Shown: in pieces, positions 6,275 through 25,410 of the stretch | Layout of the letters: every line of letters begins with the position of its first letter | Numbering within the stretch: position 1 is the first letter of the stretch | Assembly: GCF_010672525.1 (NCBI RefSeq) | Contig: NZ_JAAHGH010000059.1 | Location: 1 to 44,104, forward strand | Direction: 5' to 3' | Origin: Okeania sp. SIO2B3 | GTDB taxonomy: Bacteria > Cyanobacteriota > Cyanobacteriia > Cyanobacteriales > Microcoleaceae | DNA: 44,104 nucleotides | Made by a program: the position numbers and the translations under genes | The notes under the pieces: model-generated | Told to the model about the DNA's origin: nothing | Databases searched by the model: none | The model's input: the letters and a program-made list of their open reading frames with translations, nothing else

Positions 6275-6573
6275 TAGTTAAGTTTCCTCATTTATTTTTG
6301 TGAAATATAGTATTTTTCATGTAGTAGTATGGAAGTTCGAGTTAACTGGCCTACAAATCGTTTTTTTACCTAAAAATATTTGTGGTTATTCATTATCTTT
6401 GTCTGTGGTGGGTTTAATACCCCACCGTCAAGGGGGGTGCTTAAAATTGTTTGGGGTTTGTAGACACGGAGTGGCGTGTCGAAGACTATCCATAAGCAAT
6501 TTTCCCTTCTGCCTTCTGCCTTCTGCCTTCTGACTTCTGACTTCGTTAAGCCTTCTGCCTTCTTCATTTATGA
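6275..6573. other. Intergenic spacer with CTTCTGC repeats
   Basis: The spacer holds a short hairpin (GACACG at 6463-6468 with CGTGTC at 6475-6480) and a CTTCTGC microsatellite at about 6508-6565. No gene is seen. It lies between the small NfeD-like gene and flotillin B. Confidence 0.55.
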
Positions 6574-6918
6574 TTATTCCTGGTGTTGAAAAGATGATTT
6601 GGAAATTACCCACACCTGATTATTTTCTGTGCCAATAATAAATACTTCTTCTCCCTTAGTAAATTCTTTAGATTCTTCTGTTGTACGGGCAATTAATCCT
6701 ATGCTAGTTCCTTTAACATTTAGACTAACTTTACCTTTACTATGAGTATCAAATGGAATTTCCACAGTGCAGGGTAGACCTAAAAAATCTTGAGGACTGA
6801 CAAGACTATTTATGACTTGGTTTTGTCGAAAAATCGACAACAATAATACTATTAACATCCCACCAAATATTCCTACTCCCACTGAAATATAGGCTAACAT
6901 TAAAAGTTGATTTTTCAT
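6574..6918 (-). CDS. Small NfeD-like OB-fold membrane protein
   Basis: This is a 114-aa protein with one N-terminal membrane segment (about 6-28). A small beta-rich domain follows, with GLPCTVEIPFD, GKVSLNVKG and FTKGEEVFIIGTENNQVWVI, as in the soluble OB-fold of NfeD-type proteins. It aligns along its whole soluble part with the C-terminus of the 202-aa neighbour (FDKNSRGKIRLNVK, FTRGEKAFIVGIENHRVWVV), so the two are paralogues. NfeD proteins are encoded next to flotillin/SPFH genes and are thought to help organise or regulate microdomains. No strong ribosome binding site is visible, so the start is tentative. The family is inferred from pattern and neighbourhood. Confidence 0.75.
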   Translation of the reverse strand: MKNQLLMLAYISVGVGIFGGMLIVLLLSIFRQNQVINSLVSPQDFLGLPCTVEIPFDTHSKGKVSLNVKGTSIGLIARTTEESKEFTKGEEVFIIGTENNQVWVISKSSFQHQE

Positions 6919-7339
6919 GCTGATTTATTCATATCGCAACTATATTTAATACCAAGCGTGAAAAAAGAATGTTACAAATAAACTGGCTAGTAAATAATTA
7001 ATAATTAATAATTTACCGAATAATTAAGGTTTAAAGCCTCTCACTCGCTGTGGAGAAACAAGCGGTCGTTTGCGGAGCATTCCGTTAGGATGGGATGGAT
7101 GGGTTTCCTCACCATATCTAATCGACCAAGAGAGAAAAAATTTTCCTTTTATTCAATCCTCTTCCTTTTGGGGAGAGGTAATTATCAATTATCAATTATC
7201 CATTATCCATTATCAATTATTGAACACGCCACCTAGAAAGTTATTTGTAGCAAACATTTATCAATTTGGTATAAGTTGTGCAGAAAACCTCTTGAAATTG
7301 GGGAATTGGGAAATAGTAATAGAGGATAGCTTAAAAATA
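6919..7339. other. Intergenic spacer with dispersed repeats
   Basis: This 420-bp gap contains a copy of the dispersed 23-bp repeat (7068-7090) and a section related to the 40-240 repeat. It also has TAATTATCAATTATCC microsatellite sequence at about 7180-7220. A plus-strand ORF over it is repeat-derived and not called. Confidence 0.6.
7068..7090 (+). repeat. Dispersed 23-bp repeat, copy 1 (forward)
   Basis: GTTTGCGGAGCATTCCGT then TAGGA. It matches copies at 13548-13570, 36970-36992, 35830-35852 (reverse) and about 2680-2702 (reverse). This copy has one extra T after CCG. Confidence 0.8.
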
Positions 7340-18660: not shown

Positions 18661-20010
18661 ATGACTAGATCGTCCCCAAACCATTCTCACAATAATTCTC
18701 TAGGAGCTGTAAATGTTAACTGGTTAGTAATAACGACAGCAATAGCTACGGTTGCTGCTATTGTTGGTATTATTGCTGATGGAGGCACTATTTTTAACTG
18801 GTTTAAAGGATCATCTCCAACAAAAACAGATAATGATAATGTTACTCTTGTTGCCCCCCCTTCTCCGACTAGAGAAAATCAGACACCTAGAAATTATGAT
18901 AATGTCACCGCATCTCAAACCCAGGATGCTAAAACTTACTATAATCGCGGTAAAGAGCATTACGATCTGAGAAATTATGAACAGGCGATCGCTGACTTTA
19001 ACCGAACTATTCAACTTAATCCCAAATATGCTATAGCTTACATTTACAGAGGTCTTGTTTACTATTACCAGGGAAATTATGAACAGGCTATCGCTGACTA
19101 TAACCGAGCTATTCAACTTAATCCCAAAGATGCTTATGCTTACAATAACAGAGGTGTTGCTTACGGTAAGCAGGGAAAATATGAACAGGCGCTCGCTGAC
19201 TATAACCGAGCTATTCAAATTAATCCCAAATATGCTGATGCTTACAACGGCAGAGGTATTGTTTACTATAACCAGGGAAATTATGAACAGGCGCTCGCTG
19301 ACTATAACCGAGCTATTCAACTCAATCCCAAATATGCTGATGCTTACAACGGCAGAGGTATTGTTTACTATAACCAGGGAAATTATGAACAGGCGATCGC
19401 TGACTATAACCAAGCTATTCAACTCAATCCCAAATATGCTGAAGCTTACAATAACAGGGGTATTGTTTACGAGAAACAAGGAAAGTATGAAAAGGCACTT
19501 GCTGATTACGGGGAATCCATCAGGCTAAACAATTCTGAACTTTGGTTCCCTTACAATAACAGGGGTATTGTTTACGAGAAACAGGGAAAATATGAACAGG
19601 CGCTCGCTGACTATAACCGAGCTATTCAAATTAATCCCAAATATGCTGAAGCTTACAACGGCAGAGGTATTGTTTACGAGAAACAGGGAAAATATGAACA
19701 GGCGCTCGCTGACTATAACCGAGCTATTCAACTCAATCCCAAATATGCCAATGCTTACAATGGTAGAGGTATTGTTTACAAAGAACAGGGAAAGTATGAA
19801 CAGGCGCTCGCTGACTATAACCAAGCTATTCAAATTAATCCCAAATATGCTGATGCTTACTATAACAGAGGTAATGTTTACAAGGGTAACAACTCTATTG
19901 AAAAAGCCATATCAGACTTTGAAAAAGCTGCCGACTTATACAAACAACAAGGAAATCAAAAGTGGTATCAAAACTCTCTAGATCAACTCAAAGAATTACG
20001 AGGAAATTAG
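18661..20010 (+). CDS. Membrane-anchored TPR-repeat protein (ten repeats)
   Basis: The protein is 449 aa. A single hydrophobic segment (about 19-44) follows a polar N-terminus and precedes a Thr/Pro/Asn-rich linker (50-85). Ten tetratricopeptide repeats of 34 aa follow, with the usual W/Y-x-x-x-(N/G)RG, YEQA and ADYNRAIQLNPKYA phrases. TPR 6 has one extra residue and a divergent end (YGESIRLNNSELWFPY). Adjacent repeats are nearly identical at DNA level, suggesting recent duplication. TPR arrays bind peptides and scaffold complexes. The anchor suggests the TPRs sit on one face of a membrane. No clear ribosome binding site. Partner unknown. Confidence 0.9.
   Translation: MTRSSPNHSHNNSLGAVNVNWLVITTAIATVAAIVGIIADGGTIFNWFKGSSPTKTDNDNVTLVAPPSPTRENQTPRNYDNVTASQTQDAKTYYNRGKEHYDLRNYEQAIADFNRTIQLNPKYAIAYIYRGLVYYYQGNYEQAIADYNRAIQLNPKDAYAYNNRGVAYGKQGKYEQALADYNRAIQINPKYADAYNGRGIVYYNQGNYEQALADYNRAIQLNPKYADAYNGRGIVYYNQGNYEQAIADYNQAIQLNPKYAEAYNNRGIVYEKQGKYEKALADYGESIRLNNSELWFPYNNRGIVYEKQGKYEQALADYNRAIQINPKYAEAYNGRGIVYEKQGKYEQALADYNRAIQLNPKYANAYNGRGIVYKEQGKYEQALADYNQAIQINPKYADAYYNRGNVYKGNNSIEKAISDFEKAADLYKQQGNQKWYQNSLDQLKELRGN
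18949..19870 (+). repeat. 102-bp intragenic tandem repeats (TPR-encoding)
   Basis: The phrase GAACAGGCG(c/a)TCGCTGACTA recurs every 102 bp through the TPR gene, with only scattered base differences. This explains the open but meaningless reading frames on the opposite strand and in the second forward frame. Confidence 0.85.
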
Positions 20011-20660: not shown

Positions 20661-21581
20661 ATGACATTTATCAGCCCTAAAATCGACTTTGCCTTTAAAA
20701 AAATCTTTGGTTCTGTTCACAGTCAAAAAATCCTCATTAGCTTTCTCAATGCCATAGTTTATAACAATCAAAATGTTATTCAATCTCTCAAAATAATTAA
20801 CCCCTATAACCCTGGAGTTACTAACAATATCAAAGATACTTATTTTGATTTCAAAGCACTTTTAGATAATAATTATACCGTCGTTATTAAAATGCAAGCA
20901 TTGAAGATAGATGATTTTGAAAAACCACAAATTTATAACTTAGCTAAAGCTTATGGAAATCAATTAGATAAAACGCAGGGTTATATGATGTTGCAACCTT
21001 TTATAGCTTTAACAATCGTCGATTTTGTTTTGTTTGAAGATACTGAGAGAATGATTACTAAATTCAGACTTCAAGAAGAGAAAAAATCGATTTATTACGA
21101 AGATGAATTAACATTAATGTTTGTAGAATTACCCAAATTTAACAAGAAATTATTAGAATTAGAAAGCCTCAGCGATAAATGGATATACTTTATTAAATCC
21201 GCTCCAAATTTAGAAGTAATACCAGAATCATTGGAAGAAGTATCAGAAATAGAAGCAGCATTAAAGATAGCAAATCGAGCCAACTTAAACAATAAAGAAT
21301 TAGAGGAAGTAGAGCAACAAGAAAAGTTGATGAGAGATCAACAAGGACAAATTAGTTTCGCGAGAAACGAAGGAATTGAAATTGGAAGGGAAGAAGGAAT
21401 TGGAATTGGAGTAGTGAAACAAATCTTACGTCAAATTCGCCGAAAATTTGGGGAAATATCTCCAGAAGTCCAGACTCAGATAGAGAAATTATCTTTGGAA
21501 AAATTAGATATTTTAGGTGAAGAAATTTTTGATTTAGCAACAGTGGTAGATTTGGAAAACTGGCTAAATAATAATGGATAA
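20661..21581 (+). CDS. Rpn-like PD-(D/E)XK nuclease family protein with DUF4351-type tail
   Basis: The protein is 306 aa. The N-terminus (ISPKIDFAFKKIFGSVHSQK) is typical of Rpn/PDDEXK_2 transposase-like nucleases, which promote recombination. The C-terminus (ILRQIRRKFGEISPEVQTQI, then LSLEKLDILGEEIFDLATV) matches the DUF4351 pattern common in cyanobacterial members. A run of GIEIGREEGIGIG links the two. In the catalytic region I read YFDFKALLDNNYTVVIKMQ, where most relatives have a Glu before M/I-Q (IEMQ). The Glu-to-Lys change may reduce or abolish nuclease activity. AGGAAA lies ahead of the ATG. It sits between two related interrupted antitoxin-like genes on the opposite strand. Confidence 0.85.
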   Translation: MTFISPKIDFAFKKIFGSVHSQKILISFLNAIVYNNQNVIQSLKIINPYNPGVTNNIKDTYFDFKALLDNNYTVVIKMQALKIDDFEKPQIYNLAKAYGNQLDKTQGYMMLQPFIALTIVDFVLFEDTERMITKFRLQEEKKSIYYEDELTLMFVELPKFNKKLLELESLSDKWIYFIKSAPNLEVIPESLEEVSEIEAALKIANRANLNNKELEEVEQQEKLMRDQQGQISFARNEGIEIGREEGIGIGVVKQILRQIRRKFGEISPEVQTQIEKLSLEKLDILGEEIFDLATVVDLENWLNNNG

Positions 21582-21641: not shown

Positions 21642-22010
21642 TCATTCATCTTGAGTTAGCTTAACCGCAGCATTGAGAATATCGTCCTCAGTTACCAAAG
21701 AATCTAACCAGTCTTGATTTAGCTGCGGTTTAATTTTTTCTATTTGACGACGATAATCCTCAAGGGCTAATTTACTTTTCTCAATCATTTCCTCTTCTGT
21801 CAAAGATATAAAATTTAATGTTGAATCTATCTCTCCGTAATCTAGTAATTCTTCTGTTTTTTGATGGGATTCATTTATCAGTAACTCCTCAAAATATTCT
21901 AAATTACCAGATGAATTTACTAGCCATTTTCGGAGCAGATTTTTTACTTGCTCTCACGGTAGTTGCTCCAGGTGTTCTAATATTTTCTGTCTGAGATTAT
22001 TTGCTGTCAT
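21642..22010 (-). pseudogene. Antitoxin-like small gene with one internal stop (copy B)
   Basis: From ATG 22010 on the minus strand the frame reads MTANNLRQKILEHLEQLP, a TGA at codon 19 (a CGA-to-TGA change by comparison with family context), then EQVKNLLRKWLVNSSGNLE, ELLDYGEIDSTLNFISLTEE, LALEDYRRQIEKIKPQLNQD, then SLVTEDDILNAAVKLTQDE and a stop at 21642. The first 87 codons are homologous to copy A (20332-20592) but the C-terminus is different and longer. A read-through or internal start would give a nearly full-length protein. Confidence 0.7.
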
Positions 22011-22170
22011 AACCGTTTTTTGAGTTGTCAGTTTTTAGTTGTTATAGCATGAATTAATAAGGTACAGTATTATTTAGTTTTGATAATTCATTTAACTATT
22101 GTCCAATAGTTAAGGAAGCAAACTCACAAAGTAGCGATCGCTTGATTACTCAGTTTTGATAATTAACAGG

Positions 22171-22254
22171 ACTTACGCAAATTCTTAGACAATACGCTAT
22201 CGGTATGGGGCGAATGCCATTCGCCCCTACTAGATATGGCGGTTCTGCGTAAGT
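22171..22254. mobile_element. Inverted-repeat insertion in array unit 1
   Basis: ACTTACGCA (22171-22179) and TGCGTAAGT (22246-22254) flank an inner hairpin GGGGCGAAT (22207-22215) / ATTCGCCCC (22219-22227). The insertion makes the first array unit about 97 bp longer than the rest. A single AGGACTTACGCA end occurs again near 37527. Confidence 0.65.
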
Positions 22255-22430
22255 ACTGATTAATTTAACTATTGTCCAATAGTTAAGGGAGCAAACTCAC
22301 AAAGTAGCGATCGCCTGATTATCCATACTGAATAATTCATTTAACTATTGTCCAATAGTAAAGGAAACTGACAAGGTAGCGATCGCCTGATTATTCAGTC
22401 TCAATTATTAATTTAACTATTGTCCAACAG

Positions 22431-22546
22431 TTACAGCAGATTCCAAGTATATGAAGTACAGATATTAATAATTAAATGTTCTTAGTGCGAGCATCTTGCT
22501 CGCGCGGGTGTACCTCACCAAAGTGGAATCCGCTGTAACAGAGGAA
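22431..22546. mobile_element. Inverted-repeat insertion in array unit 4
   Basis: TTACAGCAGATTCCA and TGGAATCCGCTGTAA match 14 of 15 as inverted repeats around about 85 bp that include GCGAGCATCTTGCTCGC. The insertion falls inside the palindrome-to-HIP1 segment of unit 4. Its right end is followed by the expected AGGAAACTGGCAAGGTAGCG. The short string CAG flanks both sides and could be a target duplication. Confidence 0.65.
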
Positions 22547-23189
22547 ACTGGCAAGGTAGCGATCGCCTAATTATTCAGTCTCAATTATTAATTTAACTAT
22601 TGTCCAATAGTTAAGGGAGCAAACTCACAAAGTAGCGATCGCCTAATTATTCAGTCTCAATTATTAATTTAACTATTGTCCAATAGTTAAGGGAGCAAAC
22701 TCACAAAGTAGCGATCGCCTGATTATTCAGTCTCAATTATTAATTTAACTATTGTCCAATAGTTAAGGGAGCAAACTCACAAAGTAGCGATCGCCTAATT
22801 ATTCAGTATCGAGCATTAATTTAACTATTGTCCAATAGTTAAGGGAGCAAACTCACAAAGTAGCGATCGCTTGATTACTCAGTCTCAAGCATTAATTTAA
22901 CTATTGTCCAATAGTTAAGGGAGGAAACTCACAAAGTAGCGATCGCCTAATTATTCAGTATCGAGCATTAATTTAACTATTGTCCAATAGTTAAGGGAGC
23001 AAACTCACAAAGTAGCGATCGCCTGATTATTCAGTCTCAATTATTAATTTAACTATTGTCCAATAGTTAAGGGAGGAAACTCACAAAGTAGCGATCGCCT
23101 AATTATTCAATCTCAATTATTAATTTAACTATTGTCCAATAGTTAAGGGAGGAAACTCACAAAGTAGCGATCGCCTAATTATTCAGTAT

Positions 23190-23342
23190 TAGACATCTCC
23201 AAAAATCAAAAATAAAATCAATTATTACCCAGAAATTATCAATTATTCTTCCCTGTTCCCTGTTCCCTGTTCCCTGTTCCCTGTTCCCTGTTCCCTGTTC
23301 CCTGTTCCCTGTTCCCTGTTCCCTCTTTTATGGAAATGTCTA
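23190..23342. mobile_element. MITE with TAGACATCTCCA termini, copy 1
   Basis: TAGACATCTCCA (23190-23201) and TGGAAATGTCTA (23331-23342) match 11 of 12. The inside reads AAAATCAAAAATAAAATCAA, then a CCCTGTT heptanucleotide repeat of about ten copies (23251-23324). It abuts the end of the 76-bp array. Related copies lie at 27762-28056 and, degenerate, at 43956-44052. TA at both edges fits insertion at a TA target, as IS630/Tc1-type enzymes do. Confidence 0.8.
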
Positions 23343-23461
23343 TTGTGATGATTGATATCAGTTTTGCCTCACTTGCCAACCTACGGTATTATGACTCAAT
23401 AATATTAAGATTACTTTTAACTCTTAACTTTTGACTTTTGATTTTTGAATTTTGACTTATT

Positions 23462-24775
23462 ATGTTAACTCCAGGAAAAATTTTAAAAGAACGTTACCAA
23501 CTACAAAAACAATTAGGTCATGTTGTAGCAGGTCGTAAAACTTGGCTAGCATTTGATTCCCAGTCACAAGAACAAGTAACCATCAAAATGTTAGCTTATA
23601 GCCCAGAAATGTTAGGGCAAGAATTAAATTTATTTGAGGCAGAAGCCCAAATTTTACAAGCCCTAAATCATCCTCGCATCCCTAATTATCGCGATTATTT
23701 TTTATTATATAAAGAAGCTGATGCAGGTTTATCATGGTTTGCATTAGTACAAGATTATATTCCCGGTTTTTCCCTCCAAGAATTATTAGATAGAGAGAAA
23801 AAATTTACAGAAGCAGATGTCAATAAAATTGCCAAAGAAGTATTAGAAATTCTGATTTATCTCCACGAACTAGAGCCTCCTGTTTTGCATCGAGATATTA
23901 AACCAAGTAACTTAATTATGGGTGCAGACCAACAAGTTTATCTGGTAGATTTTGGCGGAGTCCAATCTCAAGGTAATGCTAATGGAGCAACTTTTACTAT
24001 TGTAGGAACTATAGGTTATGCACCCCTAGAACAATTTTGGGGTAGAGCAGTTCCAGCTTCAGATTTATATGCTTTAGGAACAACTTTAATTCATTTACTA
24101 ACTGGAATTATCCCCGCAGATTTACCACAAAAAAATTATCAGATTCAATTTACTGACAAAGTTGATATTAGTCCTAGTTTAGGAACATGGATTAGTAAAA
24201 TCACAGAAATGGATTTGGAAAGACGTTTTAAAAGTGCCCGTGAAGCATTATTAAACCTCGAATCACAAGCTAAATCTCAATCAAAATCACAACCGAGACT
24301 TATCTCCTCCAAAAAATCTGCAATTTTGAGCAGTATTATTAGTATTAATAAATCTTCAGACCTAATAGAAATATATACTCATGCTCCTAGTTTGAGAGAG
24401 CTAAAAAATTCTGGAATTGTTGGTGGAGCGCTTTGTATATTTTTTGGTTTACTGTTAACTAATCCAATTTATGGAATATTATTTTTTATCATTATTTTTG
24501 TGGGAATATATATACTATTTGGAGAAAAGAATTATATTTATATTGACCGTAATAATTTTCAGGTAGAACGACATTTATTTGATTTTGTTTACGGGAAATG
24601 TCAGGGAAATACTAGAGATATTTTACAAGTATTATCATCTAAATTTGAATCTGGTTATCAAGTTACAATTCAATCTCAAATAGATAAATCTCAACTCGAA
24701 CGAGCGATGAATGCAAAAGATAGCACGCGGTTAGCTCAGGAAATTAATGAATGGTTAAATCAAAAACCAGATTGA
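23462..24775 (+). CDS. Serine/threonine protein kinase with C-terminal membrane segment
   Basis: This is a 437-aa Hanks-type kinase. Residues 10-270 form the kinase domain, with a degenerate glycine loop (LGHVVAGRKTWLAFD), an ATP-binding Lys in VTIKML, the catalytic loop HRDIKPSN (about 142-149), DFGG (about 162-165) and an APLEQF activation-segment end. A Ser/Lys/Gln-rich linker leads to a two-pass hydrophobic segment (about 318-353). A short C-terminal domain (about 355-437) of unknown function follows. The activation loop lacks the usual long insert, as in many cyanobacterial kinases. There is no obvious ribosome binding site. It stands alone, downstream of the tandem array and a MITE. Substrates are unknown. 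Confidence 0.92.
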   Translation: MLTPGKILKERYQLQKQLGHVVAGRKTWLAFDSQSQEQVTIKMLAYSPEMLGQELNLFEAEAQILQALNHPRIPNYRDYFLLYKEADAGLSWFALVQDYIPGFSLQELLDREKKFTEADVNKIAKEVLEILIYLHELEPPVLHRDIKPSNLIMGADQQVYLVDFGGVQSQGNANGATFTIVGTIGYAPLEQFWGRAVPASDLYALGTTLIHLLTGIIPADLPQKNYQIQFTDKVDISPSLGTWISKITEMDLERRFKSAREALLNLESQAKSQSKSQPRLISSKKSAILSSIISINKSSDLIEIYTHAPSLRELKNSGIVGGALCIFFGLLLTNPIYGILFFIIIFVGIYILFGEKNYIYIDRNNFQVERHLFDFVYGKCQGNTRDILQVLSSKFESGYQVTIQSQIDKSQLERAMNAKDSTRLAQEINEWLNQKPD

Positions 24776-25166
24776 AGAAGCAAGAAGGAAGAAGCAAGAA
24801 GCAAGAAGTGGATGGGGATAGTCAACGACCTGCCACTTCGTGTCTTATAGTAATTTGATAAATGTTTGCTACATTTTATTGAGCGGGGCAGTAGGAGAGT
24901 ATTCAACAATTAATAATTAATAATTAACCATTAATAATGGCTTTGTTGCATAAAAGTTGCGATATAGCTGCCGCTAGGCTCCGCCAACGCAGCAAACCCC
25001 CTCCTAACTACTAGAATATTTATAACAAATATTGATCGCACCTGATCTTATACCAATTCCCAAAAATAATGCCATACTTCATTGGCATTTCAGTTATTAA
25101 GTAATTAACTTATGTCGAAAAACTTTTTTGCTACTCTGAGGTAAGTTAATGTTAATTATTCTTATG

Positions 25167-25336
25167 TTTACTTCCCCTCCTGGGAGGGGTTAGGGGTGGG
25201 TTTACTTCCCCTCCTGGGAGGGGTTAGGGGTGGGTTTACTTCCCCTCCTGGGAGGGGTTAGGGGTGGGTTTACTTCCCCTCCTGGGAGGGGTTAGGGGTG
25301 GGTTTACTTCCCCTCCTGGGAGGGGTTAGGGGTGGG
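25167..25336. repeat. 34-bp tandem repeat, five copies, each a G/C hairpin
   Basis: Units start at 25167, 25201, 25235, 25269 and 25303, with a partial at 25337. Each holds CCCCTCC-TG-GGAGGGG, a 7-bp inverted repeat, then TTAGGGGTGGG. The five copies look identical. A single related sequence in inverse orientation lies near 37360-37392. Confidence 0.95.
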
Positions 25337-25410
25337 TTTACTTCCCCACTTCCCTACTCTCCTACTATGCGAAAATATAGAAAAGTTTTTCAGAAATGGT
25401 ATTATACTAT

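Follow-up and report, generated by a model that had tools for sequence, protein, structure and literature searches.

A palindrome of dispersed tandem arrays in Okeania also precedes the genes of an expanded HTH family and is its candidate operator

Upstream of a Ser/Thr protein kinase gene in Okeania sp. SIO2B3 lies a 12-unit tandem array in which each unit pairs an 18-bp palindrome with a HIP1 site. Is this passive repeat DNA, or an array of binding sites, and if the latter, for which protein? The window, that is, the whole 44,104-nucleotide stretch analysed, is contig C205 of a 10.0-Mb draft genome in 249 contigs (own genome, G000); its features are listed in Table 1. The genomes G001, G003, G004 and G011 correspond to Okeania SIO3B5, SIO2C9, SIO1I7 and MO_207.B10 (100% DNA identity over the compared loci).

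Table 1. Coordinates of the array, its elements and the adjoining genes in the window
Feature	Position	Strand	Details
12-unit operator-like tandem array	22094..23187	+	76-bp units, two interruptions
Palindrome starts, 18 bp each	22094 (..22111), 22267, 22343, 22415, 22595, 22671, 22747, 22823, 22899, 22975, 23051, 23127		
HIP1 starts, n = 12	22134 (..22141), 22307, 22379, 22559, 22635, 22711, 22787, 22863, 22939, 23015, 23091, 23167		
MITE-like insertion, unit 1	~22168..22257	.	Ends AGGACTTACGCA...TGCGTAAGT, right end also given as TGCGTAAGTACT; coordinates read from sequence
MITE-like insertion, unit 4	~22433..22536	.	Ends ACAGCAGATTCC...GGAATCCGCTGT, directly at palindrome edge; coordinates read from sequence
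PD-(D/E)XK nuclease family transposase / DUF4351 gene	20661..21581	+	Upstream of array
Ser/Thr protein kinase gene (Pkinase, PF00069)	23462..24775	+	Downstream of array; orthologs in 6 relatives also carry array

The first-pass annotation had described 12 units, each with palindrome and HIP1, at a 76-bp period that becomes exact from the fifth unit, and both points were borne out: 12 palindromes and 12 HIP1 sites were located, and the period is exactly 76 bp from unit 5 onward (TRF 22541–23187, 94% matches). Ten of the palindromes are perfect; the third has a GTA end and the fourth has CAACAGTT. In 10 units the distance from palindrome start to HIP1 is 40 bp; unit 3 has 36 bp, and unit 4, which contains an insertion, 144 bp. 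The spacings of 173 and 180 at units 1 and 4 are due to the two MITE-like insertions, which had been overlooked earlier. The ends of the unit-1 insertion belong to the same family as those of the ~89-bp MITEs described below, and the SIO1I7 array also has an insertion similar to that of unit 4. A CRISPR array was ruled out, as the entire 76-bp unit is conserved with no unlike spacers between repeats; cas domains were absent from the families shown in a scan of 8 window ORFs.

Several other repeats are found in the window. A heptamer array (TTCCCTG, 10.9 copies, 23249–23324) sits between the 76-bp array and the kinase gene. It is part of a segment bounded by AGACATCTCC / GGAAATGTCT ends, which SIO3B5 has and SIO1I7 and SIO2C9 do not. 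Perfect tandem arrays occur at 25166–25347 (34 bp, 5.4 copies) and 2776–2974 (23 bp, 8.7 copies), a TPR-repeat protein gene at 18971–19881 contains 102-bp DNA repeats, and a TIR-like end, GGCTTTGTTGCATAAAA, lies at 24939–24955, just downstream of the kinase gene.

What stays constant in a family of dispersed tandem arrays and in ~89-bp MITE cores of Okeania and its near relatives is the palindrome AACTATTG-NN-CAATAGTT. The first-pass annotation had proposed a search of the genome and of related genomes for the palindrome with a nearby HIP1 site; the palindrome was sought in 59 genomes including the own genome (≤1 mismatch, centre K/M, with the pattern read backwards as control). The own genome holds 278 distinct sites versus 0 for the control, and four same-genus genomes hold 375, 59, 267 and 269, counts that come from draft genomes and related sequences. 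Any match was present in 16 of the 59 genomes, and counts above one were confined to genera g1, g7 and g8. HIP1 lies beside some of the sites; contigs with both palindrome and nearby HIP1 come from Okeania, Trichodesmium, Hydrocoleum CS-953 and Microcoleaceae MO_207.B10. In tandem arrangement, the own genome has 97 palindrome pairs at a 58–88-bp period, with further arrays at 96–100. Unit types vary by locus, and many have in common the palindrome, a middle resembling AGCGATCGCT and an end resembling ATTT or AAT. The centre pair depends on lineage, being GA/TC in own arrays and CG in that of G010, a behaviour that an operator spacer would be expected to show. At L121 (G000:C181, palindromes 6455–6941, the same array as L051), the centre flips between TC and GA with spacer orientation constant. 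An isolated, strain-specific minisatellite, which would have made the array passive repeat DNA, is ruled out by the genomic sites, the many other arrays and a syntenic array in relatives. Plasmids searched for the array or for the HTH protein introduced below gave no match. Of five palindrome strings looked up in the literature, 5 papers with unrelated titles contain one, but no paper was found with the 14-letter TC-centre or the 17-letter GA-centre string. Among the records listed for cyanobacterial and other bacterial repeats and for operator or titration arrays, none named the present array system.

The array has persisted at its locus. It adjoins the orthologous kinase gene in 6 relatives, three genera in all, with 4 palindromes in G001 (contig edge), 9 in G002, 12 in G003, 9 in G004, 5 in G011 and 2 in G016 (contig edge), at a period of mostly 76–77 bp. 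No array adjoins the kinase locus of G010, whose kinase is 74% identical, and the palindrome is present at 0 of 13 more distant kinase loci. Over 34 units of 76 bp, to which 7 genomes contributed (G016 with 1 unit, G011 with 2) and all of which were found by the palindrome at ≤3 mismatches, mean column entropy was 0.09 bits in the palindrome and 0.08 in HIP1 versus 0.50 elsewhere. Among the 7 species consensuses, 2 of 26 palindrome and HIP1 columns are variable versus 25 of 50 in the rest (Fisher p = 0.0003; the species are related). Other Okeania arrays also occupy shared loci: at C112:543k, flanks are 92–97% identical, and periods are 77–78 in the own genome, 77–78 (one 60) in SIO1I7, 78–82 in SIO2C9 and mostly 83 in SIO3B5. 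We infer concerted turnover around a kept palindrome, in which unit turnover would homogenise each array and site function would keep the palindrome.

A candidate binding protein was reached through the palindrome-poor, Trichodesmium-like genome G010, where two isolated palindromes lie right before a small gene. The family it belongs to has an HTH_17-like N-terminus (E ≤ 0.1 against HTH_17 for 16 of the 18 members aligned, 2.3e-5 at best, with the first member below the cut-off) and a C-terminal part that matches phrog_8676 (function not annotated) in 3 of 3 scanned. At E ≤ 1e-8, homologs number 21, 28, 23, 27 and 28 in G000–G004, 6 in G010, 16 in G011, 47 in G016, 27 in G021, 6 in G025, 3 in G028, 1 in G031 and 22 in G034; 8 other genomes have 1 each and 38 have none. 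Family copies thus range over 3–47 in palindrome-bearing genomes versus 0–1 elsewhere, counts that are not independent since the homologs are related to each other. All 12 genomes with at least 2 family genes have at least 4 palindromes, whereas 0 of 47 with fewer than 2 genes have at least 2 by the K/M-centre pattern; with a free palindrome centre, G031 has 3 sites. Palindrome number tracks gene number loosely (59 sites and 23 genes in G002, 101 and 47 in G016), and G010, G028 and G031 have few sites, several of which resemble coding sequence. PADLOC gave 0 families for 3 proteins, and a search of solved structures gave 0 relatives. A search for homologs on viral contigs yielded 27 pattern matches, of which 0 were confirmed. 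Partial matches to the protein occur in 16 phage records, 14 of them beginning at residue 48 or later and 2 in the N-terminal part, none covering 80%.

The palindromic element recurs in front of these genes, close to the start codon and at a position that is fixed for each clade. Leaders were taken for 109 of 263 homolog matches (108 genes, L214 being included twice; partial homologs L204 and L207 were dropped) and searched from −50 to +12 for AACTATN6ATAGTT with ≤2 of 12 positions mismatched. The motif was present in 83 of 109 leaders (82 of 108 genes) versus 2 of 139 leaders of other ORFs in the same window. By clade, it was found in 34/35 leaders of A, in which the array palindrome equals the family's own leader element at this threshold, 11/12 of B, 19/30 of C, 10/13 of D and 9/19 of E. 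Of the 34 matching clade A leaders, 32 have a gap of 11–13 bp between motif and start, and the motif starts at −21 in most matching clade C leaders and at −18 in most matching clade D leaders. Restricting the search to the 50 bp ahead of the chosen start lowers clade B to 1/12, because there the motif overlaps that start. Inner letters are clade-specific: TTG..CAA in A, TAG..CTA in C, AACTAAGACGTTATAGTT-like in D, and weaker in E. Perfect arms occur in 3/34 clade A leaders, 10/12 window units and 53/169 palindromes in own array loci. Among the leaders that lack the motif are those of genes with an extended N-terminus or broken by a contig end, and of 5 of the 7 single-copy homologs scored; the motif is present in the single-copy homologs of G040 and, weakly, G050. 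G040, which belongs to another family, gave a single AACTATTGCGCAATAGTT, placed 7 bp ahead of its sole homolog. Two clade A genes were seen in the own genome, each broken off by a contig end after 80 aa.

Other clades have their own putative operator variants at clade-fixed places, and one variant also appears in arrays of a relative and in MITE cores. Sites of this clade C operator (≤1 mismatch) number 5 in G000, 11 in G003, 16 in G004 and 0 in G016 (controls 1, 2, 2 and 1). In three genomes some of them directly precede clade C genes, and SIO1I7 has them in tandem runs (6 copies on C17 and 7 on C66, one mismatch each); no tandem run is found among the 5 sites of the own genome.

We consider it probable, from these sequence relations, that the palindrome is the operator of the HTH family and that the arrays are operator arrays, many of them MITE-borne. 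Family members would recognise this site, probably as dimers occupying its two half-sites, and would repress their own genes from the leader copy. Given the many array sites and their more frequent perfect arms, we propose, less surely, that the arrays, in or out of MITEs, act as multivalent docking platforms that titrate the HTH proteins, and/or build local nucleoprotein that silences or insulates neighbouring DNA. The window array, kept by the kinase gene across three genera, appears to be long-resident and may tune that gene, synteny being the sole hint of such a role. The first-pass suggestion of a binding-site array is supported by the dispersed and syntenic arrays and by a candidate family predicted to bind them.

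A passive selfish repeat is the most serious rival, albeit an unlikely one. Here the palindrome would be the core of MITEs with GGCTTTGTTGCATGAAAGTA and AGGACTTACGCA ends that spread and duplicated in tandem. The HTH leaders would have gained their copy by an ancient insertion or by capture of a promoter fragment, and the arrays would be idle. Mobile ends are indeed common: the own genome has 105 MITEs of ~89 bp with AGGACTTACGCA ends (for example, G000:C16:8100-8188 and G000:C24:88323-88411), and, among 50 distinct ones listed, 24 have the window palindrome or a near variant as core (counted by eye) and 2 a second palindrome, AACTATAGCACTATGG, identical to the clade C operator. A GGCTTTGTTGCATGAAAGTA end (≤2 mismatches), of a type that we take to resemble IS903/IS5-group ends, lies near the array at 16 of 20 fetched own array loci, and a partial MITE is duplicated in tandem in L013. 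A 9-bp duplication in the flanks is perfect at L110, L123 and L125, holds at 8/9 positions at L113, L116 and L119, and is absent from L108, L111, L114 and L121, evidence that is weak because the flanks are AT-rich. However, the arrays at C19, C186 and in the window are without GGCTTTGTTGCATGAAAGTA ends in their flanks; around the window array no TIR-type outer ends were found in the flanks, the exact GGCTTTGTTGCANNAAA occurring in C205 only at 24939, beyond the kinase gene, and yet this array is common to three genera. Idle copies also leave unexplained the clade-fixed leader position with its clade-specific letters, the single G040 site just before its homolog, and a palindrome kept while the rest of the syntenic units drifts. 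As regards MITE structure, AGGACTTACGCA MITEs are mostly ~88–94 bp long (a length of 79 is listed once) despite very different cores, in a search that allowed 68–98, and a minimal GGCTTTGTTGCAT MITE with a single palindrome, also sought, has 0 copies in the own genome.

It is considerably less probable that the array is transcribed, with an sRNA or a hairpin in a 5' leader arising from each unit, on the model of NsiR1, a tandem sRNA array upstream of hetF in heterocystous cyanobacteria. Besides this precedent, the window array precedes a gene, although of a Ser/Thr kinase rather than hetF, and 11 promoter-like matches lie in 21900–23500 versus 6.1 (sd 2.1) in shuffles. Only 3 of these are inside the array, however, and an Rfam search of the window gave 0 matches. 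Pair changes within the palindrome are one-sided in 41 cases versus 0 changed on both sides with pairing kept in clade A leaders, and in 141 versus 1 in own array loci. Such uncompensated changes fit independent protein half-sites, not an RNA hairpin.

Very improbable is an array centred on HIP1, in which methylated GCGATCGC would be functional and the palindrome accessory. In the kinase-locus array all 7 species consensuses have an unchanged HIP1, whose conservation there equals that of the palindrome, and the site is frequent in arrays, with 35 of 49 consensuses (25 source loci were chosen by HIP1) versus 0.024 expected per 55 bp, and 12 of 22 own consensuses (the window counted as two). Against this, HIP1-free arrays exist in the own genome, the Trichodesmium-like array has no HIP1, and the site occurs in 0 of 109 HTH leaders (70 bp each). 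Elhai, in the excerpt of PMC4390886 drawn on here, proposes that HIP1 generally arises and is maintained through a process linked to methylation, and such a process could explain its conservation without an array role. Judged by these counts, HIP1 is a side feature of the arrays, and the earlier idea of a methylation-sensitive protein at their core is not supported. Just as improbable are recombination or integration sites, with arrays as by-products of site-specific recombination by an excisionase-like protein: the first member's N-terminal HTH weakly matches an excisionase family (phrog_4691, E 0.0039) and small elements sit right at palindrome edges, but no recombinase or other widely shared neighbour accompanies the HTH genes across 50 compared loci, the largest other cluster being present in 10.

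Beyond the operator reading, we offer a broader one as a tentative possibility, less likely than not to hold in full. The arrays may constitute a bacterial satellite system, in which the operators of rapidly duplicating regulators were taken up by MITEs and amplified to dozens of arrays per genome, protein clades and operator variants codiverged, and a genome-wide silencing or chromosome-organising network arose, one array being kept by the kinase gene for the age of three genera. Its logic would be like that of CENP-B satellites. The CENP-B box is a protein-binding motif kept in a satellite repeat whose remainder drifts; it belongs to the eukaryotic centromere, and no homology is claimed. For large bacterial tandem repeat families the binding partner is usually not known, whereas here the sequence names a specific candidate family, with protein clades and matching site variants. 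What is new is that the array palindrome also stands before the genes of an expanded HTH family, so that in marine cyanobacteria mobile elements and tandem amplification are tied to the expansion of a regulator family. Should binding be confirmed, it can be asked whether bacterial satellites are regulator sinks, mobile-DNA silencers or chromosome organisers.

Known systems share parts of this arrangement. SDR of Nostoc are very small cyanobacterial repeats that also occur in MITEs and heptamer arrays, a likeness by description and not by sequence. Stoperators are phage elements with asymmetric sites and are not known to form 66–100-bp tandem units in MITEs. Those of cluster A mycobacteriophages resemble the present sites in that many copies of a repressor binding site are spread over the genome (PMC9283540, in the part considered); binding is proven there, whereas here it is predicted. 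REP/BIME elements with RAYT are likewise many short palindromic repeats in bacterial genomes, defined in the passage of PMC3733652 used here by a GTAG or CGTC tag at one palindrome end. No constant tag of either kind was found at the palindrome or its flanks in the window and other arrays, and the present arrays differ further in their long conserved units and apparent link to an HTH family. In Streptococcus pneumoniae, BOX elements (boxA-boxB(n)-boxC) are, as far as the extract of PMC3049150 describes them, small interspersed repeats with outer ends and a strain-variable inner tandem module. By comparison, the present inner module has a dyad that is also found in leaders of an expanded regulator family, its units vary by locus, and the window array is without the flanking ends seen at most other own loci. 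Constant-size tandem repeats of Bacillus (52 nt, 20–21 nt) come close in forming dispersed array families of variable sequence with short characteristic motifs, for which the section of PMC8161180 consulted suggests a polymerising protein of unnamed identity; in Okeania, by contrast, the period varies (66–100) and a candidate protein family can be named.
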